Source of the DNA: Rhodobacteraceae bacterium WD3A24 | Lineage (GTDB): Bacteria; Pseudomonadota; Alphaproteobacteria; Rhodobacterales; Rhodobacteraceae | NCBI GenBank assembly: GCA_002967695.1 | Contig: PUHN01000012.1 | Location: 1 to 64,000 of the forward strand | DNA: 64,000 bases | Direction of reading: 5' to 3' | Shown here: piece by piece, positions 46,752-59,703 of the stretch | Layout: every line of letters starts with the position of its first letter | Position numbering within the stretch: position 1 is the stretch's first letter | Made by a program: the position numbers and the translations under genes | Notes under the pieces: generated by a model | What the model saw: the letters and a program-made list of their open reading frames with translations, nothing else | What the model was told of the DNA's origin: nothing | Database searches by the model: none

Positions 46752-46798
46752 ACGGCTGTCGGTCTCGTTGGAAAGAGCAGCAGTGTACCCTGATCCCA

Positions 46799-47205
46799 CC
46801 TTATTCATCCAAATCGGGGGGAAATGGCTGGCGTGCCCACGAAAGCTCTGTAGAATCAAGCTGCTAAACGAAACCCGACAGCAGCCCCCGGAGCACGCCA
46901 TGGGTGAAACGCTACAGCCCTTCGCCACCCGCTTCAACAAGTCCCTTCGCGTCGAGAGACGCACGGAGCGGCTGACCGGCGATGCCGGCGTCGTGCCGCT
47001 GCGCGAGATCATGGAGCGCAGCGGCATCGTCGCGTGGATGATCCCGCAGCTGACCGATCCGCGGCGCCAGGAGGATGTCGTCCATGACCTCGCCTCCCTC
47101 ATCCGGACAAGCGTGCTTCTCGCCGCCCAGGGCTGGCGCGACCATGATGACGCCGATGCTCTTCGAGACGATCCCGCCTTCCGGCTGGTGGTCTGTTCGG
47201 TCTCC
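46799..47205 (+). mobile_element. IS1380-family element, 5' fragment
   Basis: A left end near 46799 (CCTTATTCATCCAAATC) resembles IS1380-type inverted repeats. ATG 46900 begins a transposase N-terminus: MGETLQPFATRFNKSLRV, ERLTGDAGVVPLREI, LRTS-like LIRTSVLLAAQGWRDHDDAD, DDPAFRL. Similarity stops near 47205; the catalytic DDE part and the right end are missing. The following 47206-47440 bases contain only an unassigned scrap (a plus frame ending VNSEETGRVQWAVEARGASG). Confidence 0.75.
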
Positions 47206-47442
47206 GGTTCGGGCCGTCCATGCCATCAACAGAGTCCTCCTGCGGGGTGCAACATGTTGGCCATTTCCGAACAGGACTATGCGCGCGCGATGCGGCGGGA
47301 TGTTCGGTGTGCCCGACTCGCACCGGCTCTTCGTCAGCGTGAATTCGGAAGAAACCGGCCGGGTGCAGTGGGCTGTCGAGGCGCGCGGTGCTTCCGGCTG
47401 ATCCTCTGGCCGGCCTTCTTCCGCAGGGATTGGTGCTGAGAC

Positions 47443-47693: not shown

Positions 47694-47859
47694 TGCTGCG
47701 CTCCAATGTCTCGAGCCGCTCGGCGGCGCGTCCGGCGCGCTCGCCGGCACGGCGCAGGTTGAGCAGAAAGAGAGTATCGGTCAGCGCGACCAGGGCGATC
47801 GAGGCCACCCGCCGCGCCCAAGGACGAGCCAGCACCCCGGCCACCATACCCCACATCAC
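47602..47859 (-). CDS. Rz-like i-spanin (phage lysis)
   Basis: 85 residues: one N-terminal transmembrane helix (~16-34), then a charged coiled-coil (LRRAGERAGRAAERLETLERS) and a basic tail. This is the topology of an inner-membrane spanin, which joins the o-spanin to fuse the two membranes in the last step of phage lysis. It overlaps the endolysin stop by 4 bases and contains the o-spanin frame, a classic Rz/Rz1 layout. Confidence 0.6.
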   Translation of the reverse strand: MMWGMVAGVLARPWARRVASIALVALTDTLFLLNLRRAGERAGRAAERLETLERSNAVHRQMLEAAARRPRSRDDLLDRLRGGGF

Positions 47860-48530
47860 CGCCGCCCCCTCTTCCAGTCATCGAGACGGGCGTAGACCGC
47901 CAACACGACGCCACCGAGCGCGAGCGCGATGAGCACCCAGCGCAGGCTGTCGAGATAGGGGACGAGCGCCTGCAGCTGTCCCTGCGCCTCGGAGATGGAC
48001 TCCTGGGCAACCTCGACCGCTCCGGTGCCCAAGGTGGCCGCACCGGCGGCCCCTGCCCCGCGCATGGTGCGGCTCTCGGCGAGGCGCTCGCGCGCGGGCG
48101 GGCGCTCGGTCGAGAAGGGCGCGCTGTCCGCGGCCGGCCACGGCGCGCCCCAGGACCGCTCCGGCCCGAGGTCGATATGCATGAAGTTCGAGCGGGGATA
48201 AGTGCCGAAGCCCTTGAAGCCCACGGCGCGCGCCTCTCGCTCGAAGGTGTGCGGCTCTTGGTTCGTCATCGAGATATCGAACGCGGTGCCTTCCATGTGC
48301 TTCGAGCGTGTCGCCCCGCCCACCGCGCGGTTGTGCTCCGGGCTGCGGTAGCCGCTGGTCACGATCAGGGGCTTGCCGAGCCGGTCGCGGAGTGCCTGCA
48401 GGGTGTCGAGGGCCTCCTCGTGGACGAGCAGCTTGCCGGTCCCGCAGCAGGCGATCTCGGCCGGCGAGAAGTCCTGCCACCACCAGTCCGCGTCGGGAAC
48501 CTCGCTGTAGTGCTCATAAAGGCGGGTCAT
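47856..48530 (-). CDS. Phage endolysin, M15-type peptidase with C-terminal membrane helix
   Basis: 224 residues. M15_3 carboxypeptidase domain: VTSGYRSPEHN, then SKHMEGTAFDI and NFMHIDLG supply the zinc His/Asp/His set (around 84-140). The N-terminal tryptophan-rich WWWQDFSP may aid binding. The C-terminus has a transmembrane helix (WVLIALALGGVVLAVYA). It would cleave peptidoglycan cross-links during lysis. It is followed by the spanins, and it lies after the holin-like gene with a terminator between them. Confidence 0.82.
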   Translation of the reverse strand: MTRLYEHYSEVPDADWWWQDFSPAEIACCGTGKLLVHEEALDTLQALRDRLGKPLIVTSGYRSPEHNRAVGGATRSKHMEGTAFDISMTNQEPHTFEREARAVGFKGFGTYPRSNFMHIDLGPERSWGAPWPAADSAPFSTERPPARERLAESRTMRGAGAAGAATLGTGAVEVAQESISEAQGQLQALVPYLDSLRWVLIALALGGVVLAVYARLDDWKRGRR

Positions 48531-48548
48531 CAGGGCCTCCTGAAACTG

Positions 48549-48570
48549 AAAAAACCCGCCTGGGGCGGGC
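48549..48570 (-). terminator. Rho-independent terminator (minus strand)
   Basis: Stem CCCGCC / GGCGGG with a short loop, followed on the minus strand by TTTTTT, between the holin-like gene and the endolysin gene. Confidence 0.85.
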
Positions 48571-48597
48571 CGAGAGGGATGGGTTGTGCGCCGGCCG

Positions 48598-48924
48598 TCA
48601 GTCTTGCGGCGGCGGGTGCTGGAATGCGGCGAAGAGGAGCTCGCGCATCTGGTGGATATCGCGCTCGACGCGCTTGCGATGCTCCTGCTCGGACTTCATG
48701 TCCTCGGCCCGCTGGGCCTCGGGGCGATCGCGTTCCTCGATCCGCACCTTCTCTGCACGCTTTCGCTCCTCGCGGAGTTCCTGCTCGAGGCGGCGGACGA
48801 GGGCCTCGCTGGTAAACGCCTTGCGCGTGACCGCGCCGGCCACCGCGAACAGGAAGGTCAGCGCCGCGCCGATCGCCGCGGTCAGCCCTTTCTCGCGGAA
48901 GGCGGTGGTGATTTGCTCGATCAT
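48598..48924 (-). CDS. Holin-like small membrane protein
   Basis: 108 residues from ATG 48924 (an ATG at 48942 is also in frame). One hydrophobic helix (TAAIGAALTFLFAVAGAV) followed by a long charged coiled-coil (EQELREERKRAEKV). Membrane protein beside the endolysin and spanins, so a holin or lysis accessory is likely by position; no family motif is recognised. Confidence 0.5.
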   Translation of the reverse strand: MIEQITTAFREKGLTAAIGAALTFLFAVAGAVTRKAFTSEALVRRLEQELREERKRAEKVRIEERDRPEAQRAEDMKSEQEHRKRVERDIHQMRELLFAAFQHPPPQD

Positions 48925-48938
48925 GGTTGTTCGGTCCG

Positions 48939-49919
48939 TCATGATGCGCTCAGGAGGCCGATTTCATCGGGGAGGTCGGCGTCGGTCCAGGCCGCGCTCG
49001 TGTCGGGGTTTTGCGCCCATGAGAAGAACGCGGTCTCTGGCATGGCGCTTCCGAGAGCAACGCTTGCCGCGTCGTAGTCGCTCGCGTTGAGACGAAGCGA
49101 CCCGGCGAGGTTGCCCGGCCCGCTGGTGCCCGCCTGCGCGATGGCCTTGAGGTGGACGCCCGCGATGGTGGGGCCGGCCAGGGTGGCGTTCTGGCGCTGC
49201 CCGGCGGTGTCGCTGGTCATCCGGGTGAGCACGCTGCCGTCGCCCAGCGAGGCGAGCGATCCGGCCCACTGGTCGTAGTTGCCCACGGTGTCCGGTGTCC
49301 GCCGCGCGAAGCGCCGTCCGATGGTCGAGACGCCATCGAGAACCGCGAGGTGGGCGATATGCCAGGAAGCGGTGCCCGAGTGCCAGGTCTGCGACGGGTT
49401 GTCGAACTTGATATGCACCGGCTTGCCCTTGCCGCCGGTGTTCGCCGCCGTGGCGCTGCTTACCAGCACGCCGCCCACGTAGAACTCGATGGTGATGTCC
49501 GCGCCGACCGCGACCTTGATATCCATCCAGTAGGTGTTGCCTTGCCCGATGGTGAAGGTCGTTGTCCCGACAACCTGGCTGTCCCCCTCGGCCACGGCCT
49601 CGATGGTCTCGTCGGAGTGGCCGCGCAGCCGGGCGACGAGGGCACCGTTGGCGTCGTAGAAGGACACGAACGGGGTGTCGTTGCTGTCGATACCGAACTC
49701 TGCATCGTCCGCAGTCAACGTGCGGAACTGGAACCACAGGTCGCCTATCGGGGTGTCGAAATCGAGGTAGAAGGGCTGCCTGCTGTCCTCGTTGCCTTCG
49801 AACCGGAGGCTGTTCACATCCAGATCGGGATCGAATGTCCCGGCATCCGTGCTCAGATGGTTGCTGGTGACAGCCCCAAGATCGGCGGGCTGGTGGCAGA
49901 GGTGAAGCACATGGCTCAT
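48939..49919 (-). CDS. Phage virion protein (lectin-like beta-sandwich)
   Basis: 326 residues of beta-rich sequence with LamG/concanavalin-like character: FYLDFDTPIGDLWFQFRT, NTYWMDIKVAVGADITIEFYVGG (short motifs) and KPVHIKFDN. No signal peptide. Located among tail-end genes before the lysis cassette, it is probably a tail fibre or capsid decoration protein. The stop overlaps its 5' neighbour's downstream start region. Confidence 0.6.
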   Translation of the reverse strand: MSHVLHLCHQPADLGAVTSNHLSTDAGTFDPDLDVNSLRFEGNEDSRQPFYLDFDTPIGDLWFQFRTLTADDAEFGIDSNDTPFVSFYDANGALVARLRGHSDETIEAVAEGDSQVVGTTTFTIGQGNTYWMDIKVAVGADITIEFYVGGVLVSSATAANTGGKGKPVHIKFDNPSQTWHSGTASWHIAHLAVLDGVSTIGRRFARRTPDTVGNYDQWAGSLASLGDGSVLTRMTSDTAGQRQNATLAGPTIAGVHLKAIAQAGTSGPGNLAGSLRLNASDYDAASVALGSAMPETAFFSWAQNPDTSAAWTDADLPDEIGLLSAS

Positions 49920-50707
49920 GACGTATCCTTCTCGATCCAGAGTTCATTCACGGCGGCGCTGAGGGCTTGCCCGCCGCCGATCTCTATCCACTGCTCCGCC
50001 GTGAACGAGGCCACGCCGTCCTCGATCCCGAGACCTTCCCCGAGAGCTATGAAGCCGCTGGGCACCGTGTAGGAGAATTGACTGGTGAGCGTCCGCAGCG
50101 TGCCGCCCTCGTCGGTCTCGCGCCCCTGACCAACGACCCAGAAATCGTTGGCAGCGGCGGTGCTGACTTCCACGGGGCCGAGGGTCGCGGGGTCGTTCTC
50201 CCACGTGCCATTGAGGCCGATCCAAAGGCTTCCGGTGGCCGGGTCGAACGGCATCATCACGATGTCGCCCGCGCCGTAGGCGGTATAGCTGCCGATGTTG
50301 GAGCCGTCATTGCCCCAGATATCGCCGCTGCCCCGGTAGGCGAGGGAGCCCTCGCAGATCGGATTTTCTCCGCTGTCATAGGTCGTGGACGGGTCGTCCA
50401 GTGCCGCCTGCGAGACGACCGCATGGTAGCCGTTGAACTCCGCTGGCCCGGCGGGGTTCGCCTCGAACTCCCAATGGACAGGCGCTGGATAGAGACCGGG
50501 GACGCGAGAAAGCGTAGGCACCCAGCGGCGATAGTCGGACCCGCCGCTGGTGTTGATGAGCGTCCGGTCATCATTGGAGAGGGTGTGGCCGGCGCCCGCC
50601 TTGGCCGCGTCGAACTGCACGCCAATGGTGTCACCACCGCCATCACCGCCGTCCCCTCCGGCGGTGGAGCCCATCAGCAGGGCGAAGCGCGAGAGAAAGA
50701 GGCCCAT
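49916..50707 (-). CDS. Phage virion protein (SPRY-like)
   Basis: 263 residues from ATG 50707, which overlaps the preceding stop (ATGA). The region with GDIVMMPFDPATGSLWIGLNGTW resembles a SPRY-type beta-sandwich, and the N-terminus MGLFLSRFALLMGST is short and hydrophobic. It overlaps the next gene by 4 bases. A tail fibre or host-recognition role is plausible. Confidence 0.6.
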   Translation of the reverse strand: MGLFLSRFALLMGSTAGGDGGDGGGDTIGVQFDAAKAGAGHTLSNDDRTLINTSGGSDYRRWVPTLSRVPGLYPAPVHWEFEANPAGPAEFNGYHAVVSQAALDDPSTTYDSGENPICEGSLAYRGSGDIWGNDGSNIGSYTAYGAGDIVMMPFDPATGSLWIGLNGTWENDPATLGPVEVSTAAANDFWVVGQGRETDEGGTLRTLTSQFSYTVPSGFIALGEGLGIEDGVASFTAEQWIEIGGGQALSAAVNELWIEKDTS

Positions 50708-50945
50708 CACGTCACCTCCGAGACCGCGCCCTGCACGACCCACGCGTCCGCCGCGCGCTTGTAGAGGCCCGCGCCGCCCCATTGGGCGTAAATGGTGCAG
50801 GAGCCCGCCAAGACGCCGTTGAGCGTCACGCCGGTATCGCCCGCGATGGTCGTGGTGCCCGCGCCGACCTGGCTGATGTTGACGAGCGCGCCCACGGGGA
50901 AGTTGACGCTCGCCTCGGCGGGGAGGGGCACGAGCAGCCCGCGGG
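50707..50945 (-). pseudogene. 5'-truncated phage tail-type protein
   Basis: The last ~80 codons (LLVPLPAEASVNFPVGA, then GVTLNGVLAGSCTIYAQW, DAWVVQGAVSEVT) look like the C-terminus of a phage tail protein. Upstream of ~50945 the sequence is terminase DNA on the opposite strand, so the 5' part is lost. Confidence 0.6.
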
Positions 50946-51264
50946 CACTGTGCATCTGCCGGAATGGATCGAGACCGAGTGGCTCAAGCAGCTCGTCGCC
51001 GAGCAGCTGGTGACGGTGCGCAACCGGCGCGGCTTCGCCCGGCTCGAATGGCAGAAGCTGAGCGAGCGCAACGAGGCGCTCGACACCCGCGTCTATGCCC
51101 GCGCCGCCGCCTGGATCGCCGGCGGCGATCGCTGGTCGAACGAAAAGTGGAAGGAGCTCGAGGACACCACGCGCGCCTCGAAGGACGAACAGACCGCCGA
51201 GGCCGCCCCGACGAAGCGGGCGAACAACTGGGTCGGCGGTCACAAGACGAAGGGCTGGCTCTGA
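50946..51264 (+). pseudogene. Phage terminase large subunit, C-terminal fragment
   Basis: About 105 codons on the plus strand, against the surrounding phage genes: EWIETEWLKQLVAEQLVTVR, RGFARLEWQKLSERNEALDT, YARAAAWIAGGDRW and a tail ending NNWVGG(H)KTKGWL, as in GpA-type terminases. The 5' part is missing; it meets the truncated tail gene head to head at ~50946. It overlaps the gpW gene start (51264). Confidence 0.7.
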
Positions 51265-51476
51265 TGGCAGGTTTCACACAGGCGGACCTCGACGCGCTCA
51301 AGCGCGCCTATGCGAGCGGCGTGCGCAGCGTCACTTACGCGGACGGCAAGGCCGTCACCTATGCCAGCACCGAGGAAATGTGGCGCACGATCCGGCGGAT
51401 CGAGGACGATCTGGCGCGCGCCTCATCGACCGGCAAGCGTCCGGTCGCCGGCTTCGCCACGACGCGGAGGGATTGA
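51264..51476 (+). CDS. gpW-family head-tail joining protein
   Basis: 70 residues: FTQADLDALKRAYASGVRSV, VTYADGKAVTYASTEEMW and RTIRRIEDDL, as in lambda gpW-type proteins that sit between terminase and portal genes. It follows the terminase with a 1-base overlap. Intact, but stranded in an inverted fragment without the rest of the head genes. Confidence 0.8.
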   Translation: MAGFTQADLDALKRAYASGVRSVTYADGKAVTYASTEEMWRTIRRIEDDLARASSTGKRPVAGFATTRRD

Positions 51477-51479
51477 TCC

Positions 51480-51545
51480 ATGATCGCGAAGATGAACCTG
51501 ATCGACCGCGCCGTGGCGTCCTTTGCCCCCGCACTGCTGCCCGGC
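51480..51545 (+). pseudogene. Phage portal protein, N-terminal stub
   Basis: ATG 51480 or 51492 starts MNLIDRAVASFAPALL, like the first residues of lambda-type portal proteins, and follows gpW as expected. Phage sequence ends near 51545, where the antisense GntR gene fragment begins. Confidence 0.55.
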
Positions 51546-51888
51546 ACATGGCGGCGCGCGCGGCCATCGCGGGTTCGACGGTGAGCCGCGTCAGGGCGAG
51601 CTGGTCGACCTGATCACAGGTCAAGTGCGGCACCATGATCCGGCGGTTCTCGCCGAACGCCAGCGCCCCCTCGGCGGTGAGCCGGCGCAGGGATTCGCGC
51701 ACCGGGGTCAGGCCGGCCCCCAGCCCTTCGGCAATTCCGTGCAGTGTCACCGGCTGGCCGGGGCGGAGTTCGCCGTACAGTATCATCCGGCGCAACTCGG
51801 TGTGCACACGCTCATGCGCGGGCACCTTCCGCCGTACCGGAACCATCCCCTCGTCCGGGGCGCGCAGTCGTGTATCGTGATCCTGCAT
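51545..51888 (-). pseudogene. GntR-family regulator, 3'-truncated
   Basis: About 115 codons from ATG 51888 encode a full GntR winged helix (RRKVPAHERVHTELRRMILY, LTPVRESLRRLTAEGALAF) and the first helix of an FCD domain (LALTRLTVEPAMAARAA). The frame then runs into phage portal/gpW DNA read backwards. The ligand domain is lost, so it is unlikely to regulate normally. It probably belonged to the styrene-monooxygenase-like cluster that follows. Confidence 0.75.
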
Positions 51889-51936
51889 ATGTGTAACAAT
51901 ACCCGCCAACGCGCGACTCCGTCAGAGGATTCGCCG

Positions 51937-52947
51937 CTACTCGGCGAAGGCGTCGTTCAGACCGTTCTGCAGCGTCTCGCGCGGGGTGCAGCCGAACAGG
52001 CGGCGGTAGCTTTCCGCAAAGCGGCCGAAATGCGCGAACCCCCAGCGCATGGCGACGTCGGTCACCCGCGTGCCCGGGGCGGCGTGCTGCAGATCCAGAT
52101 GCGCCCGCCGCAGCCTCGTGTCGCGCAGGAAGGCCATGGGCGTCGTCCCCCGGAAACGGCGGAAGGCATATTGCAGCGACCGCGCGCTGACCCCGGCCGC
52201 GGCGGCCACGTCCTCGAGCGTGAGCGGCTGATCCAGCGCGGCCAGCATGTATTCCTCGGCCAGCTTCACGTGGCGCGGGGCGACGGTGCTACGCGGCGCG
52301 TTGTGGAAGAACCCGGCGTAGTTGTGGCGATGTGCCTCCAGCAGGCCGGTCAGGATCGCGCCCTCGATCTGCCGGGCCAGCAGCCCGCCGGGCGCCAGCG
52401 CCGGACGTCCCCGGTCGGCCTCGGCCACCAGATGCATGATCAGGCCGCGCAGCGCCGCACCCTGCGCGCCGGTCAGGTCCAGCGCCCCCTCGAAGGTCAG
52501 CGGCCGGTCCGCGGCGCTGCCAAGCTGGCCGGCGAGATGCTCGTGCATCGCGCGCCGGTCGATCTGGACCAGAACCTGCCGGCAGCCTTCGTTCCAGATC
52601 ATCGAGGTCGGATGGTGGGGGTTGAGGACCGCCGCCGCACCGGGATGCGAGTAATAGCGCGACGGCCCGTTGGCGATCGCCGCGCCGCCGTCGAGCGGCA
52701 GCTGGAAAAGGTAGAAGTCGCGCAGCTCGCCCGGGCTGATGAGCGTCTTGGCGCCGTACTCGATGAAGTTCAGCGACAGCCGCTCGCCCGGAAGGTGGTG
52801 ATGGCGCGCCTGCAGCGGGGCGCGGCCGATGGTGTCCAGCGTGTGCGGGCAGAAGACCGCCGCCACCCGTTCGCGCGCCTCGTCAAGGTCGCGCGTGTGA
52901 AACAGGGCGAAATCGGCCAGCGGGGGCCGGTGCGTCACCTCGGGCAT
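51937..52947 (-). CDS. AraC-family regulator
   Basis: 336 residues from ATG 52947 (a GTG at 52980 is possible). N-terminal AraC_binding_2 type domain (residues ~15-190) and C-terminal double HTH: LTLEDVAAAAGVSARSLQYAFRRF, FLRDTRLRRAHLDLQ, VTDVAMRWGFAHFGRFAESYRRLFGCTP (short motifs). It is divergent from the SDR-monooxygenase genes, 186 bases apart, and is the likely activator of that cluster in response to its aromatic substrate. Confidence 0.88.
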   Translation of the reverse strand: MPEVTHRPPLADFALFHTRDLDEARERVAAVFCPHTLDTIGRAPLQARHHHLPGERLSLNFIEYGAKTLISPGELRDFYLFQLPLDGGAAIANGPSRYYSHPGAAAVLNPHHPTSMIWNEGCRQVLVQIDRRAMHEHLAGQLGSAADRPLTFEGALDLTGAQGAALRGLIMHLVAEADRGRPALAPGGLLARQIEGAILTGLLEAHRHNYAGFFHNAPRSTVAPRHVKLAEEYMLAALDQPLTLEDVAAAAGVSARSLQYAFRRFRGTTPMAFLRDTRLRRAHLDLQHAAPGTRVTDVAMRWGFAHFGRFAESYRRLFGCTPRETLQNGLNDAFAE

Positions 52948-53133
52948 TCTCCTGGTGCCTCTGCCGCGGTTGGCGGGCACTCTAGCACATCATGCGGCGT
53001 GTTTCACATTGCCCGCGCACGGGCGCGCTCATTTTTTCGTTTTCCGGATAGTCGCGTCGGCCGCCGGATAGCCCGCGCGGCGTTGTCGGTGCACATCCCC
53101 CGAAAGCCGCAATGCGTCAAGGGGAGGACAACG

Positions 53134-53910
53134 ATGCGTGGACTGGACGGCAAGGTGGCGATCATTCCCGGCGGCGCCACCAAGATCGGCGCCGCCATCG
53201 TCGCCGCGTTCCGCGAGGCCGGCACGCGGGTCATGGTCGCCGACATCAACGAGGAGGCGGGCCGCGCGCTCGAGGCCGACGGCGTGGCCTTCCAGCCCAC
53301 CAACCTGCGCGACGACGACGACATCACCGCGCTGGTCAAGGCCGCGAAGGACCGCTTCGGCCGGATCGACTTCCTCGTCAATGTCGCGTGTTCCTACCTT
53401 GACAACGGCGTCGAGTCGACGCGGGCCGAATGGCTGGAAAGCCTTGACGTGAACGTCGTCGGCTCGGTCATGCTGATGCAGGCCGCACGCGAGGAACTGG
53501 CGAAAAACAAGGGTGCGATCGTCAATTTCGGCTCGATCTCGTCGCGGGTCGCGCAGACGGGGCGCTGGCTCTACCCGGTCTCGAAGGCCGCGATCCTGCA
53601 ACTGACGCGCAACCAGGCGATGGACCTTGCCCCCGAGGGCATCCGCGTCAACGCCGTCAGCCCCGGCTGGACCTGGTCGAACATCATGGATGAACTCACC
53701 GGCGGCGACCGCGCCAAGACCGACGGCGTCGCCGCGCCGTTTCACCTGCTGGGCCGGACGGGCAACCCCGAAGAGGTGGCCAGCGCCGTCCTGTTCCTGT
53801 GCTCGGACGAGGCGAGCTTCATCACCGGCACCGATATCCGCGTGGACGGCGGCTACACCGCGATGGGCCCCGAGCAGGCGGTGCCGGCAATACCGAAACT
53901 CATGGAATGA
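53134..53910 (+). CDS. Short-chain dehydrogenase/reductase (SDR)
   Basis: 258 residues from ATG 53134, with GGGGAGGA upstream. Nucleotide-binding GGATKIGAAI at residue ~12, NVACSYLDNG in the NNAG position, catalytic Ser in FGSISSR and YPVSK (~150), and C-terminal ASFITGTDIRVDGG. It oxidises or reduces an alcohol/carbonyl with NAD(P). It precedes the monooxygenase by 25 bases, so it likely acts on the monooxygenase product or a linked alcohol. Confidence 0.9.
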   Translation: MRGLDGKVAIIPGGATKIGAAIVAAFREAGTRVMVADINEEAGRALEADGVAFQPTNLRDDDDITALVKAAKDRFGRIDFLVNVACSYLDNGVESTRAEWLESLDVNVVGSVMLMQAAREELAKNKGAIVNFGSISSRVAQTGRWLYPVSKAAILQLTRNQAMDLAPEGIRVNAVSPGWTWSNIMDELTGGDRAKTDGVAAPFHLLGRTGNPEEVASAVLFLCSDEASFITGTDIRVDGGYTAMGPEQAVPAIPKLME

Positions 53911-53935
53911 CAACGACATCACGGGAGGAAACGCG

Positions 53936-55165
53936 ATGAAACGCATAACGATCATCGGCGGCGGCCAGTCCGGGCTGCAACTGGGCCTCGGCCTGCTCAA
54001 GAACGGCTACGAGGTACGCGTGGTGCAGAACCGTACCGCCGAGGACATCCGCGGGGGCCGCGTTATGTCCAGCCAGTGCATGTTCTCGAACGCCGTCCAG
54101 CACGAGCGTGACCTGGGCATCGACTTCTGGTCGGACGAGTGCCCGCCGGTCGAGGGCATCAACTTCATGGTCCCCGCCCCGGACGGCAACGGCAGGGTGA
54201 TCGACTGGACCGGCCGGCTGGACCGCAACGCCTATTCGGTTGACCAGCGCGTGAAGATCCCGCGCTGGATGACCGAGTTCGAGCGTCTCGGCGGCCAGAT
54301 GGTCATCAAGGACGCCGGCATCAGCGACATCGAGCTCTATGCCCGCGAGGACGACCTGGTCGTCGTCGCCTCGGGCAAGGGCGAGGTCGGCCGGCTGTTC
54401 GAGCGCGACGCCTCCAAGTCGCCCTACGACAAGCCCCAGCGCGCGCTCGCGCTGACCTACGTGACCGGCATGACCCCGCGGCCCGAGCATTCGGCGGTGT
54501 GTTTCAACCTGATCCCCGGCGTGGGCGAGTATTTCGTGTTTCCGGCGCTCACGACGACCGGCCCCTGCGAGATCATGGTCTTCGAGGGCGTGCCCGGCGG
54601 GCCGATGGATTGCTGGGGCGAGGTGAAAAGCCCCGAGCAGCACCTGGCCAAGTCGAAGGAGATCCTCGACACCTACCTGCCGTGGGAGGCCGAGCGCTGC
54701 CGCAACATCGAGTTGACCGACGACAACGGCATCCTCTCGGGCCGGTTCCCGCCGACGGTGCGCCACCCCGTGGCGACGCTGCCCTCGGGCGCGAAGGTGC
54801 TGGGGCTGGGCGACGCGGTCTGCCTGAACGACCCGATCACGGGGCAGGGCTCCAACAACGCCGCCAAGGCCGCCGCGGTGTATCTGGACCGGATTCTCGC
54901 CCGCGGCGAGGGGGAGTTCGACGCCGAGTGGATGCAGGGCACTTTCGACGCCTATTGGGACTACGCCCAGTGGGTGGTGCAGTGGACCAACATGATGCTG
55001 GCGCCGCCGCCCGACTTCGTGCTGGACCTCATGGGCACCGCCTCCGCAGAGCCCCGCCTCGCGCACCGCATGGCAAACGGCTTCGACGATCCGCGCGATT
55101 TCTTCCCGTGGTTCGCCGACCCCAAGGCGGCGCAGGACTACATGGCCGAACTGGAGGCCGCGTGA
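53936..55165 (+). CDS. Styrene monooxygenase-like FAD-dependent oxygenase (StyA type)
   Basis: 409 residues. Dinucleotide-binding IIGGGQSGLQLGLGLLKNGY at the N-terminus, NRTAEDIRGGRVMSSQCMF near residue 30 as in StyA/SMOA proteins, a central substrate domain, and LGLGDAVCLNDPITGQGSNNA near 285, the FAD-ribityl DG-type motif. No NAD(P)H-binding domain: it depends on reduced FAD from a partner. The flavin reductase gene follows 3 bases later, the standard two-component layout. Expected to epoxidise alkenyl aromatics or to oxidise related aromatics or sulfides; the true substrate is unknown. Confidence 0.88.
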   Translation: MKRITIIGGGQSGLQLGLGLLKNGYEVRVVQNRTAEDIRGGRVMSSQCMFSNAVQHERDLGIDFWSDECPPVEGINFMVPAPDGNGRVIDWTGRLDRNAYSVDQRVKIPRWMTEFERLGGQMVIKDAGISDIELYAREDDLVVVASGKGEVGRLFERDASKSPYDKPQRALALTYVTGMTPRPEHSAVCFNLIPGVGEYFVFPALTTTGPCEIMVFEGVPGGPMDCWGEVKSPEQHLAKSKEILDTYLPWEAERCRNIELTDDNGILSGRFPPTVRHPVATLPSGAKVLGLGDAVCLNDPITGQGSNNAAKAAAVYLDRILARGEGEFDAEWMQGTFDAYWDYAQWVVQWTNMMLAPPPDFVLDLMGTASAEPRLAHRMANGFDDPRDFFPWFADPKAAQDYMAELEAA

Positions 55166-55168
55166 GCC

Positions 55169-55663
55169 ATGGGCATGCCTGTTGATCCCCAGGAATTTCG
55201 CACCGCCATGGCGCGCTTTCCCGGCGCGGTGACCATCATCACCGCCCGAGTGCCCGAAGAGCGCCGCGGCATCACCGCCACGGCCGTCTGCTCGGTCAGC
55301 GCCGAGCCGCCGAGCCTGCTGGTCTGCGTCAACCGCGGCACCGGCACCGGCGCCGCGATCCACGAGACGGGGCGCTTCAACGTCAACCTGCTGGCCGACC
55401 CGGCCGACGAGCTGGCGCTGCGCTTCGCCGGGGCCCGCGGCGTGACCGGCGAGGAGAAGTTCGCCGCCGGTGACTGGGGCGAGGACGATCGCGGCCTGCC
55501 GGTCCTGCGCGGGGCGCTTCTGTCGCTGTCATGCGATGTCACCGACACCCTGGAGGCGGGCAGCCACACCGTTTTCGTCGGCTGCATCACGCAGATTCAC
55601 CAGGGCGAGGGCGCGCCGTTGATGTATGAGCGCTCGCGCTTTCACCGGCTCCAGCCGATCTGA
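55169..55663 (+). CDS. Flavin reductase (StyB/HpaC-like)
   Basis: 164 residues. Family features: FRTAMARFPGAVTIITA, GITATAVCSVSAEPPSLLVC, FNVNLLAD and the C-terminal SHTVFVGCITQI. It uses NAD(P)H to reduce FAD, which diffuses to the oxygenase encoded 3 bases upstream. It is the last gene of the inserted cluster; a GC-rich hairpin (CCCGCCG-GGCTTG-CGGCGGG, 55676-55695) follows and may terminate it. Confidence 0.9.
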   Translation: MGMPVDPQEFRTAMARFPGAVTIITARVPEERRGITATAVCSVSAEPPSLLVCVNRGTGTGAAIHETGRFNVNLLADPADELALRFAGARGVTGEEKFAAGDWGEDDRGLPVLRGALLSLSCDVTDTLEAGSHTVFVGCITQIHQGEGAPLMYERSRFHRLQPI

Positions 55664-55746
55664 CGTCTGCGCGTCCCGCCGGGCTTGCGGCGGGGCGCGC
55701 CCGCGGCACCATTGCCGCAACTGGTCTCGGGCTCCTATTCGCGCCT

Positions 55747-56106
55747 GTGCGTCGCGGCGACGCGGGCGACTTCCTCGTATATCCCGCACAGCAGGTTCAG
55801 GGTGCGCGTCGCCTCCGACAAACGCGCGCGCAGCGCGGGATCTACCTCGTCTTCGATGAAAGCGATCGCCGTGCCTATGTCGGCTCCGCCTATGGTCGAG
55901 ACAACATACTCGGTCGGTGGCAAGTCTACGCCCGCGATGGTCATGGTGGAAACCGCGAGCTGCGCGGTCGCGACCCTCGCAATTATCGCTTCAGCATTCT
56001 CGAACGCCTCGCGCCCGACCTGCCGGCGGAAGATGTCATCGCTCGCGAGAACGGCTGGAAACAGCGGCTCCCCACCAGGCAGCCGTACGGGCTCAACGCC
56101 AACTGA
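55747..56106 (+). CDS. GIY-YIG nuclease-domain protein, N-terminus unclear
   Basis: The last ~90 codons encode a GIY-YIG domain: GIYLVFDE, RRAYVGSAYG, LGRWQVYARDGHGGNREL, YRFSILERLAPDLP and ARENGWKQRL with the catalytic Glu. Codons before the GIY motif match nothing, and the usual N-terminal region is missing. It lies immediately beside the inserted monooxygenase cluster, so it may be 5'-truncated or be a mobile-element nuclease. A minus-strand frame here is treated as a shadow. Confidence 0.6.
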   Translation: MRRGDAGDFLVYPAQQVQGARRLRQTRAQRGIYLVFDESDRRAYVGSAYGRDNILGRWQVYARDGHGGNRELRGRDPRNYRFSILERLAPDLPAEDVIARENGWKQRLPTRQPYGLNAN

Positions 56107-56107
56107 T

Positions 56108-56551
56108 TCACCCGCCGAGAGGGTCGTGGGTGGCGTAGTGCAGGACGACCGGGACAACGACCGCCTTGAGCGGCGTGCCGCCCTCGACGGGGATTTCCTC
56201 GGTCTGCGGGGCCTGAGCCTCCGACCAATCGCACTCCCCGCCGAGCGTCCGGTCGGGCGCGATCGCGGCGGTGATCGCCTGCTTGAGCGCGTCGAAACGC
56301 GCGTCGCGGGTCGCCGCGGTCTTGCCGGCGACCACCACGTCGATCTCGGCGCGGTGCTGGTAGAAGTAGGCGAGCGGCGAGAGCAGCACCTTGGGATCGC
56401 CAGGGTCGCCGTCGCGCTGGATCAGCGCGCCAGCCGTGGGCACCCGCGTCGGCAGCGCCGTGTTGCGCTCCACGAGGGCGCCCGACGGCGCCGCGGCCGC
56501 GAGGGCGGTATGCAGCGCCTTGAGCACCGTCTCGGATTTGCTCTCAGACAT
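56108..56551 (-). CDS. Phage tail-terminator-like/minor tail protein (GTA-like)
   Basis: 147 residues: KALHTALAAAAPSGALVERNT, GALIQRDGDPG, and a beta-rich end with IDVVVAGKTAATRDARFDAL. It resembles the proteins sometimes labelled acyl-CoA transferase in GTA-like prophages. It follows the DUF6441-like gene by 1 base, so it is in the head-tail connector operon. Confidence 0.6.
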   Translation of the reverse strand: MSESKSETVLKALHTALAAAAPSGALVERNTALPTRVPTAGALIQRDGDPGDPKVLLSPLAYFYQHRAEIDVVVAGKTAATRDARFDALKQAITAAIAPDRTLGGECDWSEAQAPQTEEIPVEGGTPLKAVVVPVVLHYATHDPLGG

Positions 56552-56552
56552 G

Positions 56553-57188
56553 TCAGTCTCCCACGCGGTCGCTCACCCAGGGATCCACGATGCGGCCGGG
56601 CATCTCATTCTGCACCTGCTCGGCCGCGCGATCGAGGTCGAGCCGCTTTTTCAGCTTCACTTGCGGGACGAGGATGAAGATCGGGACGGTCGCCTTGCCG
56701 CGCCCCGTCCTGGAGCGCGACCGCACCGCCCGGCCCTTGCTCGACAGCCGCCCCTCGGCGACCAAAAGGCTGGGTGCGTTCTTGCGGTAGATGAAGCGCA
56801 GCGGCATCCCGCGGCGCTGCTCCCATTCGCCCGGCGTCAGCCGCGCACCGCGCAGCCCGCGCCCCGCGGCCTCTGTCGGGATCGCCAGGAAGAAGCCGGC
56901 ATCCGATTTGATCGTCGCGCCCTTGTCGTGGGAGTTCACGACCTCGGGCGCGTTCGACCAGACATAGGCGGCGGCATTCAGGCTGTTCTGGCCCTTGGGA
57001 TAGGCTTGCTCGCGGATGGAGTTCGCCAGACGCCGGCCGAGCCCGGCGCCGGTGATCTGCCGGCGCCAGGCGGTTTTCAGGTCGCGCCCGGCGCCGATCG
57101 CCGCGCGCTTGACCGCCTTTTCCCCGGCGGCGACCTCGCGCGCCATGACAACCGCGAGGTCGGGGCTCACATCGAGTTTCACCCTCAT
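56553..57188 (-). CDS. Phage head-tail/connector protein (HK97 gp10-like)
   Basis: 211 residues, basic and soluble: KRAAIGAGRDLKTAWRRQIT, NSLNAAAYVWSNAP and GRAVRSRSRTGRGKATV. It fits the gp10-like/DUF6441 proteins found between head-tail joining and tail-terminator genes. Overlaps the stop of the truncated upstream gene by 4 bases. Confidence 0.6.
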   Translation of the reverse strand: MRVKLDVSPDLAVVMAREVAAGEKAVKRAAIGAGRDLKTAWRRQITGAGLGRRLANSIREQAYPKGQNSLNAAAYVWSNAPEVVNSHDKGATIKSDAGFFLAIPTEAAGRGLRGARLTPGEWEQRRGMPLRFIYRKNAPSLLVAEGRLSSKGRAVRSRSRTGRGKATVPIFILVPQVKLKKRLDLDRAAEQVQNEMPGRIVDPWVSDRVGD

Positions 57189-57310
57189 TGCGGGCGCGCC
57201 TCCACGGTCCAGACAAGCCGGTCGCTGTCCTGCATGGGCTCGCCGATGACCTCGAAGGTCTTCGCGCGAGATGCTACCGCCTGGCCGCGCTTGTTGATGC
57301 GGGCGCGATC
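57185..57310 (-). pseudogene. 5'-truncated phage head-tail joining protein
   Basis: The last ~40 codons (VASRAKTFEVIGEPMQDSDR, LVWTVEARPQ) look like the end of a phage head-tail joining protein. Upstream sequence from ~57330 belongs to a recombination-module gene, so a deletion joins the two modules here. Confidence 0.55.
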
Positions 57311-57469: not shown

Positions 57470-58189
57470 TCAGCTGTTCAGCCAGGCCGGTGCGCCGCCG
57501 GGTGTGGCGGGGGCCGCGGGGGCTACGCTGCCCTGGGCCGGCGCGGCCGGCGCCTGGGGCGTGTTGGACCAGCCGCCTTGCCCCGGTGCCTGCGCGTTCC
57601 AGGCGGGCGGCGTTTGCGCGGGCGCCTTGCGCGGTGCGGCATTGACCGGATCCGGCGTGACCTGCTCGCCGCGCATGATCGCCGCATAGGCGGGTTCATT
57701 GGGCAGCACGACATTGGCCAGCTTGTTGCTGTCGCGGTAGTTCGGGTTGTCCGAGCTCTCCACCATGATCCGTGCGGCGAAGGTAATCCCGTCGAGCTGC
57801 TTGAGCCCGCCGATCACCCGCTTTTCCTTGGCAGCCTGGCTGACATCCTGCGGGTCGAGCCCGAGCGCGCTGTCCACCATCGCCCGGAACGCGCTTTTGG
57901 AGATGTTCCAGCCCTTGGACTGGCCTTTCTCGTCGAGCTTGCCGCCCGCCACGGTGAAATTCTGCCAGAACTTGCGCCGCGCGAACGGCCCCTCGGTCAC
58001 GGTGAATACGCAGTCGAGCATCTTCGCATCGCTCTGCGAGGAACTTTTCAGCAGCCCCGCATCCATCTCGGTCGCGCCGTTCGTGCCGCCGGGGCGCAGC
58101 TTCATCGTCACCTTGGCGAAGGTGCCGTCCGGGATCAGCTCTCCCATCGGGGCCATTTGCGGAGCGGCGTCGTTCAGATCGTAACTCAT
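57470..58189 (-). CDS. Phage single-strand-DNA-binding-like protein
   Basis: 239 residues. The N-terminal ~170 residues form a compact domain (PDGTFAKVTMKLRPGG, RKFWQNFTVAGGK, KSAFRAMVDSALGLDPQDVS); the C-terminal ~60 are Pro/Ala/Gln-rich and disordered, as in SSB-like proteins. It is downstream of the RecA-like AAA gene in a recombination module. DUF669-like identity is tentative. Confidence 0.6.
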   Translation of the reverse strand: MSYDLNDAAPQMAPMGELIPDGTFAKVTMKLRPGGTNGATEMDAGLLKSSSQSDAKMLDCVFTVTEGPFARRKFWQNFTVAGGKLDEKGQSKGWNISKSAFRAMVDSALGLDPQDVSQAAKEKRVIGGLKQLDGITFAARIMVESSDNPNYRDSNKLANVVLPNEPAYAAIMRGEQVTPDPVNAAPRKAPAQTPPAWNAQAPGQGGWSNTPQAPAAPAQGSVAPAAPATPGGAPAWLNS

Positions 58190-58432: not shown

Positions 58433-59071
58433 CTAGTCGACGATGCCGGGCAGCTCGCGGCCCGCCTTCGAGCCTTCCATCTGCGGAACCCAGCTCGATG
58501 TGCCGAACTCGTCGGTCACCTTCTCCAGAACGCCCACGAAGACCACCGTCTTGCCGCGCGCATGCTGGAGGTGTTTCAGCGCCTGGATGACCTCGCGCCC
58601 GAGCAGCCCGTAGGCCCCGCGCACATCCGGCTTTCCGGTGCGCTCCGAGAACGCCTCCGGCTGCTGCTTGGCATAGGCCATGGCCTGGCGCGTCAGATCG
58701 TTGATGGAGTCGACGAAGATGATCGAGCGGTCCCTGAGGAATTCCTCCAGCCCGCTCTCGGCGTACTGCGCCTGGACATGGGCGTGATAACGCGGTCCGT
58801 AATAGCTGTCGGGGTGCTGCGCCGGGTCCGGGCCACCGATCAGGATCACCAGATCGCGGAAATCGGCGAAGCTGCGGATCGGAATGCTGGGGCCGCGCCA
58901 GTCCTGGACGGATTTCATGCCGGCTTCGAGGTCGAAGCACACCGTCCTGTCCTCGGGCATCGATGTGATCAGCGTGGTCTTGCCCACGCCGGGCGGGCCG
59001 AAAATGGCCAGCGATGTCTTGTTCTCGGCCGCCGACAATCGCTCGTCGGCGGTGATGATGCGCACTGTCAT
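58433..59071 (-). CDS. Phage RecA/Sak4-like AAA ATPase
   Basis: 212 residues from ATG 59071. Walker A FGPPGVGKTTL (~24), Walker B-type SIIFVDSIND (~115), and HARGKTVVFVGVLEKV. Single-domain size fits Sak4-type single-strand annealing ATPases that work with SSB-like partners. The start overlaps the upstream stop by 4 bases. Confidence 0.75.
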   Translation of the reverse strand: MTVRIITADERLSAAENKTSLAIFGPPGVGKTTLITSMPEDRTVCFDLEAGMKSVQDWRGPSIPIRSFADFRDLVILIGGPDPAQHPDSYYGPRYHAHVQAQYAESGLEEFLRDRSIIFVDSINDLTRQAMAYAKQQPEAFSERTGKPDVRGAYGLLGREVIQALKHLQHARGKTVVFVGVLEKVTDEFGTSSWVPQMEGSKAGRELPGIVD

Positions 59072-59703
59072 GGGGCTCTCCTTGAAAGGGGTCGAAACGG
59101 ACAACAGCGACGGGGAGTGACCGGGCGCCGAAGGGGAGCCTGCCCAGCCATGCGGTCAGGGCCTCCCCGCCGCTGTTGTTCGGGGGTTCCAGTGGGCTCG
59201 AGCCGAAAGCCGGGTTTGCCGCTGCCGACCGTGCGCGCGGTCTCGAAGCCGGCCCTGATCGCCTCGGGCCAGGCCGCGTATTTGCGCTCCGGCACCCTGA
59301 TCGCGATGTCGACGTACTGGGCCGGATCGTTGCCCGCGGCGCGGATGCGCTCGACCATGTCCGCGAGCTGGCGCTGATCCCACTCGACGCGCTTGGGCAG
59401 GTCGGCAACCACGGTGAAATCGCCGTCATCAAACCGGACGGTGCCGGTGTCCTTGCCGTGGGCGTACCGTTCCTCAGCGGCGCGGTCGGCATAGCGGATT
59501 TCCAGTGCGCCATCGAGACGGGCCTTCGCGGCCTTGTCGCGCTTGAGCCGCTCATCGATCTCGCGCTGGAGGATGGCGAGAAGTTCGACCGGCAGCTGGG
59601 CGATCTCGCCCGGCGCCATGGCAGTGAGGTCATCGCTCCGTGGAGCGTTCTCCGGGTAGGGCATGAAGGGGTCTCCGTGATCGGGAAAGAAGGATTGGGT
59701 CAT
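59068..59703 (-). CDS. Phage recombination-module protein of unknown function
   Basis: 211 residues. Acidic, helical, with LPVELLAILQREIDERLKRD and RKYAAWPEAIRAGFETA. Overlaps both neighbours by a few bases, so it is translationally coupled. The last ~30 residues are Arg/Pro-rich and may be a tail or a change of frame. No function assigned. Confidence 0.6.
   Translation of the reverse strand: MTQSFFPDHGDPFMPYPENAPRSDDLTAMAPGEIAQLPVELLAILQREIDERLKRDKAAKARLDGALEIRYADRAAEERYAHGKDTGTVRFDDGDFTVVADLPKRVEWDQRQLADMVERIRAAGNDPAQYVDIAIRVPERKYAAWPEAIRAGFETARTVGSGKPGFRLEPTGTPEQQRRGGPDRMAGQAPLRRPVTPRRCCPFRPLSRRAP

Follow-up and report, generated by a model that had tools for sequence, protein, structure and literature searches.

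Reversed packaging genes beside a bacterial monooxygenase-type operon in a defective prophage of a probable Rhodobacteraceae genome

How did packaging genes on the plus strand come to lie among the minus-strand tail genes of a prophage? This question is raised by a locus within the window, i.e., the whole stretch of 64,000 nucleotides that was analysed, for which a preliminary description had proposed that an inversion plus a deletion broke the prophage. The locus is most likely a decaying prophage that was broken by illegitimate recombination, whereby tail genes were replaced, a bacterial operon was captured and head genes were lost in a separate deletion. With it, a family of closely related prophages in one probable Rhodobacteraceae genome counts three members or more. 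The copy derives from a tailed phage with a gpA-type terminase, and its defective state is reflected by a phage gene order with relatives elsewhere, together with the loss of genes essential for the particle. This is ordinary prophage decay of an already described kind. A study on Helicobacter pylori prophage remnants presents inversions, fragmentation and merging with other regions as a route of decay (PMC11321410); as described there, it is a survey of 298 prophage-bearing genomes concerning another host and other phages, whereas a single locus is followed here at base resolution. The general picture of prophage decay remains unchanged, and the locus offers a near base level view of prophage dismantling in a genome crowded with siblings.

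Anatomy of the prophage and its siblings

The genome containing the window is a draft of 129 contigs (99.76% complete). Two of its other contigs, C52 and C95, carry the tail half of related prophages (lysis and tail genes), and two more, C45 and C51, the early, terminase and portal half, C51 being 97% identical to C45 across the first 3.9 kb. All four terminate within prophage genes; presumably, C52 or C95 pairs with C45 or C51 as one prophage, the contigs being unlinked. Comparison with these siblings established the anatomy of the locus, the orientation of its parts, the positions of its joins and the blocks that are missing. Its phage features and joins are as follows:

47,846–50,924, minus strand: lysis/tail-tip part up to the truncated minor tail gene, collinear with C52 (82%)
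50,707–50,924, minus strand: remnant of the truncated minor tail gene (phrog_8780, E 3.8e-12; the ORF in C52 comprises 223 aa)
50,923–50,926: left join, tail gene to terminase, ~2 bp in common (base-level comparison with L018 and L020, by eye)
50,925–51,264, plus strand: 3' end of the large terminase gene, last ~113 codons (Pfam GpA_nuclease, E 4.9e-21)
51,264–51,476, plus strand: gpW-like head-tail joining gene, complete, 70 aa (phrog_2545 head-tail adaptor, E 2.3e-18)
51,480–51,566, plus strand: stub of the portal gene with a disrupted frame (recognized by identity to the portal of C45)
51,552–51,566: right join, portal to GntR gene, in a GC-rich stretch
55,829–55,836: junction between bacterial segment and phage GIY-YIG gene, few bp in common (by eye)
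55,831–56,106, plus strand: phage GIY-YIG gene, C-terminal third (phrog_26160, positions 183–278 of 278)
56,108–57,264, minus strand: natively oriented block of tail terminator, DUF6441 gene and head-tail attachment gene, the last one truncated
57,256–57,270: join of the second deletion, between attachment gene and early genes
58,433–59,104, minus strand: Sak4-like single-strand-annealing protein (phrog_124, E 7.9e-27; AAA_24, E 6.8e-39)

The lysis/tail-tip part, featuring matches to phrog_8780 (minor tail), phrog_6368 and Peptidase_M15_3, corresponds to L018 3158-6314 of C52 (window 47,846–50,927, 82%) and to C95 (48,555–50,932, 79%). On the far side of the inserted stretch, window 56,118–57,264 is 94.3% identical to C52 and 93.5% to C95, with matches to phrog_4204, phrog_6367, phrog_7787 and DUF6441 (E 1.2e-45). 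Both blocks keep the strand and order of C52, which holds 10.2 kb of tail genes between them; in the window, this tail block is absent between 50,924 and 56,108. When the own draft genome was searched with C52:27,999-44,103, only matches of ~60–120 bases were obtained beyond C52, C95 and the window blocks, and the lost tail block did not turn up in it a third time. The siblings resemble the window copy in gene order, with shared blocks at 79–95% DNA identity. The tail block persists in C52 and a 659-aa terminase ORF in C45, both of which the window copy has lost while carrying a bacterial operon.

A deletion junction near 57.3 kb had been proposed previously, and it coincides with the point at which the C52 homology ends (57,264), inside the head-tail attachment gene. 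The loss of tail genes sits apart from it, at the captured segment, and had not been recognized before.

At the lysis end, the prophage is bordered by a truncated transposase (window 46,768–47,439; DDE_Tnp_1_4, profile 2–91 of 435, E 1.1e-16). To the right of the prophage lies an open frame which we take to resemble a serine recombinase (L022 4440-5936; C24 ~66.4–67.9 kb). Phage_integrase gave 12 matches in the genome, none of them on C24, with one each on C45 and C51.

The reversed packaging fragment

The plus-strand packaging piece extends from 50,924 to 51,552–51,566 and comprises the terminase end, the gpW-like gene and the portal stub. It had been described before as a terminase, gpW and portal fragment opposing a cut tail gene on the minus strand, and profile matches as well as identity to C45 bear this out. 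Over 648 bp, the fragment is 94.9% identical to C45 and 94.3% to C51, which is beyond chance; C45 and C51 contain unbroken copies of the stretch, there inside longer terminase and portal genes. The head-to-head join of tail gene and terminase also holds, its coordinate shifting from ~50,946 to ~50,923–50,924 by comparison with the siblings, and the portal stub exists, its join lying within 51,552–51,566 instead of at ~51,545.

The terminase piece also matched phrog_15 (terminase, E 3.4e-25) and differs from the full-length reference, the 659-aa C45 ORF, in 14 codons, six of them synonymous and eight non-synonymous. It shares 50% amino acid identity over the terminase C-terminus with Rhodobacter capsulatus phages such as RcKemmy (MW677517.1); these are free phage genomes with a complete annotated terminase, whereas the window terminase is truncated, as is its portal gene. 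The C45 portal gene was assigned to phrog_21 (E 5.2e-73), and relative to both C45 and C51, the stub shows a 1-base deletion near 51,526. The gpW-like gene, for which the Pfam search gave no match, encodes a protein identical to that of C45. It is still readable, although, judged from the gene content, a function in particles would not be expected without terminase, portal and tail.

Compared with C45, the gpW-like gene (51,264–51,476) shows 12 synonymous and no non-synonymous codon changes, next to 8/14 non-synonymous ones in the adjoining terminase piece. Ongoing selection on gpW is not claimed from these values, since the changes are undatable relative to the truncation. In viral loci picked by terminase similarity (78 loci, 27 of them with both matches), mean identity amounted to 44% for gpW and 67% for terminase.

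To place the orientation of the fragment, 204 viral loci found with four window proteins, some of them on the same contig, were considered, the own genome's four loci being excluded. Terminase and portal lie on one strand in all 86 loci holding both, and the same applies to terminase and attachment gene (50 of 50, with a median distance of 6.5 kb between the two). DUF6441 was found downstream of the terminase on the same strand in 48/48 loci containing both, which, in line with the earlier placement of the packaging genes near 57.3 kb, supports a native position upstream of the block there. In the window, the strand of the terminase fragment opposes that of DUF6441; given the uniform arrangement in the 48 loci, this orientation is abnormal. 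The early gene at 57,470–58,189 occurred together with a terminase in none of the 204 viral loci.

The fragment (94.9/94.3%) and the block at 56,118–57,264 (94.3/93.5%) diverge alike from the siblings, and therefore one prophage is a possible source of both. Judged by these identities, the two may stem from one prophage, or the fragment may alternatively derive from a sibling. Own-genome searches revealed neither join of the fragment a second time.

Two further contigs contain related pieces. In a remnant on C46 (L225 8135-8957), terminase sequence is joined straight to lysis-end sequence across a short common stretch, and C47 (L233 6932-7086) carries a 156-bp terminase piece of the same family.

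The captured bacterial segment

Between the portal stub and the cut phage GIY-YIG gene (~55,830), the window contains 4.3 kb of non-phage DNA, which had gone unmentioned in the preliminary description. By its gene content, the stretch ~51,560–55,830 is identified as a captured bacterial segment consisting of one half of a GntR gene together with an operon of the styrene-monooxygenase type:

51,552–51,909, minus strand: GntR-family regulator, N-terminal half, cut by the join (Pfam GntR, E 5.4e-12)
51,937–52,980, minus strand: AraC-family regulator (AraC_binding_2, E 9.8e-44), adjoining SDR-SMO-FR in relatives
53,134–53,910, plus strand: short-chain dehydrogenase, SDR (PF13561, E 2.1e-59)
53,936–55,165, plus strand: styrene monooxygenase-type flavoprotein, SMO (Smoa_sbd, E 1.5e-47)
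55,169–55,663, plus strand: flavin reductase, FR (Flavin_Reduct, E 1.6e-40)
55,700–55,830, minus strand: 3' part of a bacterial gene in convergent position (tblastn: one weak match among 80 loci, E 5e-4)

Among the best 80 named genome loci, SDR and SMO were each present in 80/80, FR in 77/80 and AraC in 68/80. AraC, SMO and FR were clustered in all eight family genomes fetched, a ninth match lying at a contig end; the SDR query, in spite of its wrong frame, matched the expected place in the same proportion (8/8). These co-occurrences show AraC/SDR/SMO/FR to be a bacterial unit. The 3' end of the convergent gene seems, by eye, to occupy the same place downstream of FR in Gemmobacter lanyuensis (L259 ORF 11761-12384). 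A plasmid of Alloyangia pacifica (NZ_CP022192.1) carries the same four annotated functions, 58% of the query aligning at 71.3% DNA identity; there, the unit is plasmid-borne, whereas in the window it is lodged within a prophage, next to a GntR gene of which one half remains. With a metabolic operon of bacteria located between phage genes, automatic annotation might call it phage cargo. A literature search for styrene monooxygenase, prophage and Rhodobacteraceae yielded no paper.

The monooxygenase was detected in 10 out of 295 family genomes including the own one (E <= 1e-60), the nine others being 74–83% identical, and was not found in G001, the sole congener among the 295. Four congeners gave short partial DNA matches only. 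Within the own genome, there is no second copy of the monooxygenase (one match at E <= 1e-60); copying from a resident locus is therefore unsupported, unless the source was lost or external. The G+C content of the segment (0.67–0.71) does not distinguish it from the phage flanks.

The GntR gene is cut after ~119 codons and shares 71% amino acid identity with a full-length paralog in C79. At E <= 1e-38, the own genome alone matched among 394 family genomes. That GntR regularly belongs to the operon was rejected, as a weak match was obtained in 2/80 loci, where AraC lay ~1.7 kb and 6.8 kb away.

The GIY-YIG gene beyond the segment was likewise considered as bacterial and rejected, because it accompanies the phage tail terminator. 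Its Pfam match (E 5e-4, 20.8 bits) falls below the curated cut-off of 22.6, and its full length is ~296 aa in L318. Homology of the piece begins at 55,833 in 10/10 viral loci, and in nine of them it goes on to take in the end of the tail terminator. Since the gene lies opposite to, i.e., convergent with, the tail terminator in all nine loci containing both, its strand in the window is normal and only the truncation is abnormal.

Joins and possible routes to the present structure

Overall, the sequence in common at the joins amounts to between ~2 bp and a maximum of ~13 bp, and all ends of the inserted stretch lie within genes. Simulated random joins reached at least 2 bp in 19–21% and at least 6 bp in 0.3% of cases; as ~2 bp are attained by 21% of random joins, no microhomology is shown at the left join. 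At the right join, the portal gene and the C79 GntR paralog agree in 12/13 bases (a run of six, a mismatch and a run of six), a value measured against a 71%-identical paralog. For comparison, RecET is reported to recombine 5–13 bp sequences at a low rate of 1e-8 (PMC2327257). No repeat pair with its arms at two joins was present between 50,600 and 56,400 among the pairs listed (25 of the 27 inverted pairs), and a profile search recognized no recombinase gene in the inserted stretch. A 20-nt direct repeat (95%) occurs in the tail gene (window 50,838–50,857) and in the GIY-YIG gene (55,929–55,948); the joins lie outside the repeat, whose copies are found 67 bp beyond the left join and ~95 bp beyond the right outer one.

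Under the explanation by illegitimate recombination, 10–11 kb of tail genes, from the minor tail gene to GIY-YIG, gave way to two directly abutting pieces, the extent of the loss being estimated from C52 plus the missing part of GIY-YIG. The first piece is the 0.64-kb reversed packaging fragment, presumably originating from the prophage's own head module or that of a sibling, and the second the 4.3-kb bacterial segment with its styrene-monooxygenase-type operon, cut within a gene at both ends. A likely route would be a chromosome break that was repaired through template switching, or through end joining at microhomologies, with fragments captured in the process, and the Sak4-like annealing protein of the prophage perhaps helped in this repair. 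A separate deletion at 57,264 took the remaining head genes.

Of the earlier proposal of an inversion plus deletion, the wrong orientation and the large deletions stand. The simple inversion does not: the block at 56,118–57,264 has the same strand and order as in C52, and because the flanking phage blocks retain their orientation, one simple inversion cannot give the structure. In this proposal, a single inversion between tail gene and terminase would be followed by the loss of most of what had been inverted; it would suit the orientation of the fragment at the left breakpoint (50,924) and the similar divergence of fragment and flanking block from the siblings. It is nonetheless improbable, as the tail-terminator/DUF6441/attachment block between the breakpoints is not inverted relative to the tail and a bacterial operon adjoins the portal stub; extra inversions or a capture would be required. 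Some likelihood, albeit a rather low one, is given to a first rearrangement that brought a prophage remnant, its portal adjoining the GntR gene, beside the operon, the composite subsequently moving into the tail genes as a single unit of ~4.9 kb. The GntR–portal join would then predate the outer joins, and stray terminase pieces do exist in C46 and C47, but own-genome searches gave no other GntR–portal join.

An assembly chimera has to be considered for a draft of 129 contigs with several close prophages, where C52, C95, C45 and C51 end inside prophage genes. Yet this is hardly probable, given that the ~2 to 13 bp at the joins are far below usual assembly overlaps, the fragment is 5–6% different from both siblings, the window is without N and one join partner is bacterial DNA. 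Least of all would the locus be accounted for by an invertible segment under regulation, or by an insertion that was site-specific or carried by a transposon. The likeness of a reversed fragment and an inserted operon to such systems is superficial, even with the 20-nt direct repeat near the outer joins, and is outweighed by intragenic ends, the lack of a listed repeat pair at two joins and an inserted stretch without recognized recombinase.

Rhodobacter gene transfer agents carry ~4 kb of DNA. With a slight probability, the 4.3-kb segment would represent a single linear DNA molecule that a gene transfer agent or transducing particle had delivered from another cell and that was captured at the prophage break, a reading that draws on the segment being cut within genes at both ends and being without a second copy in the genome. 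If true, it would be a rare trace of transferred DNA fixed without homologous recombination, by short-homology joining with a packaging fragment.

In the own genome, GTA_TIM produced two matches, a nearly full-length one on C115 (L446) and a partial one on C42 (L447).
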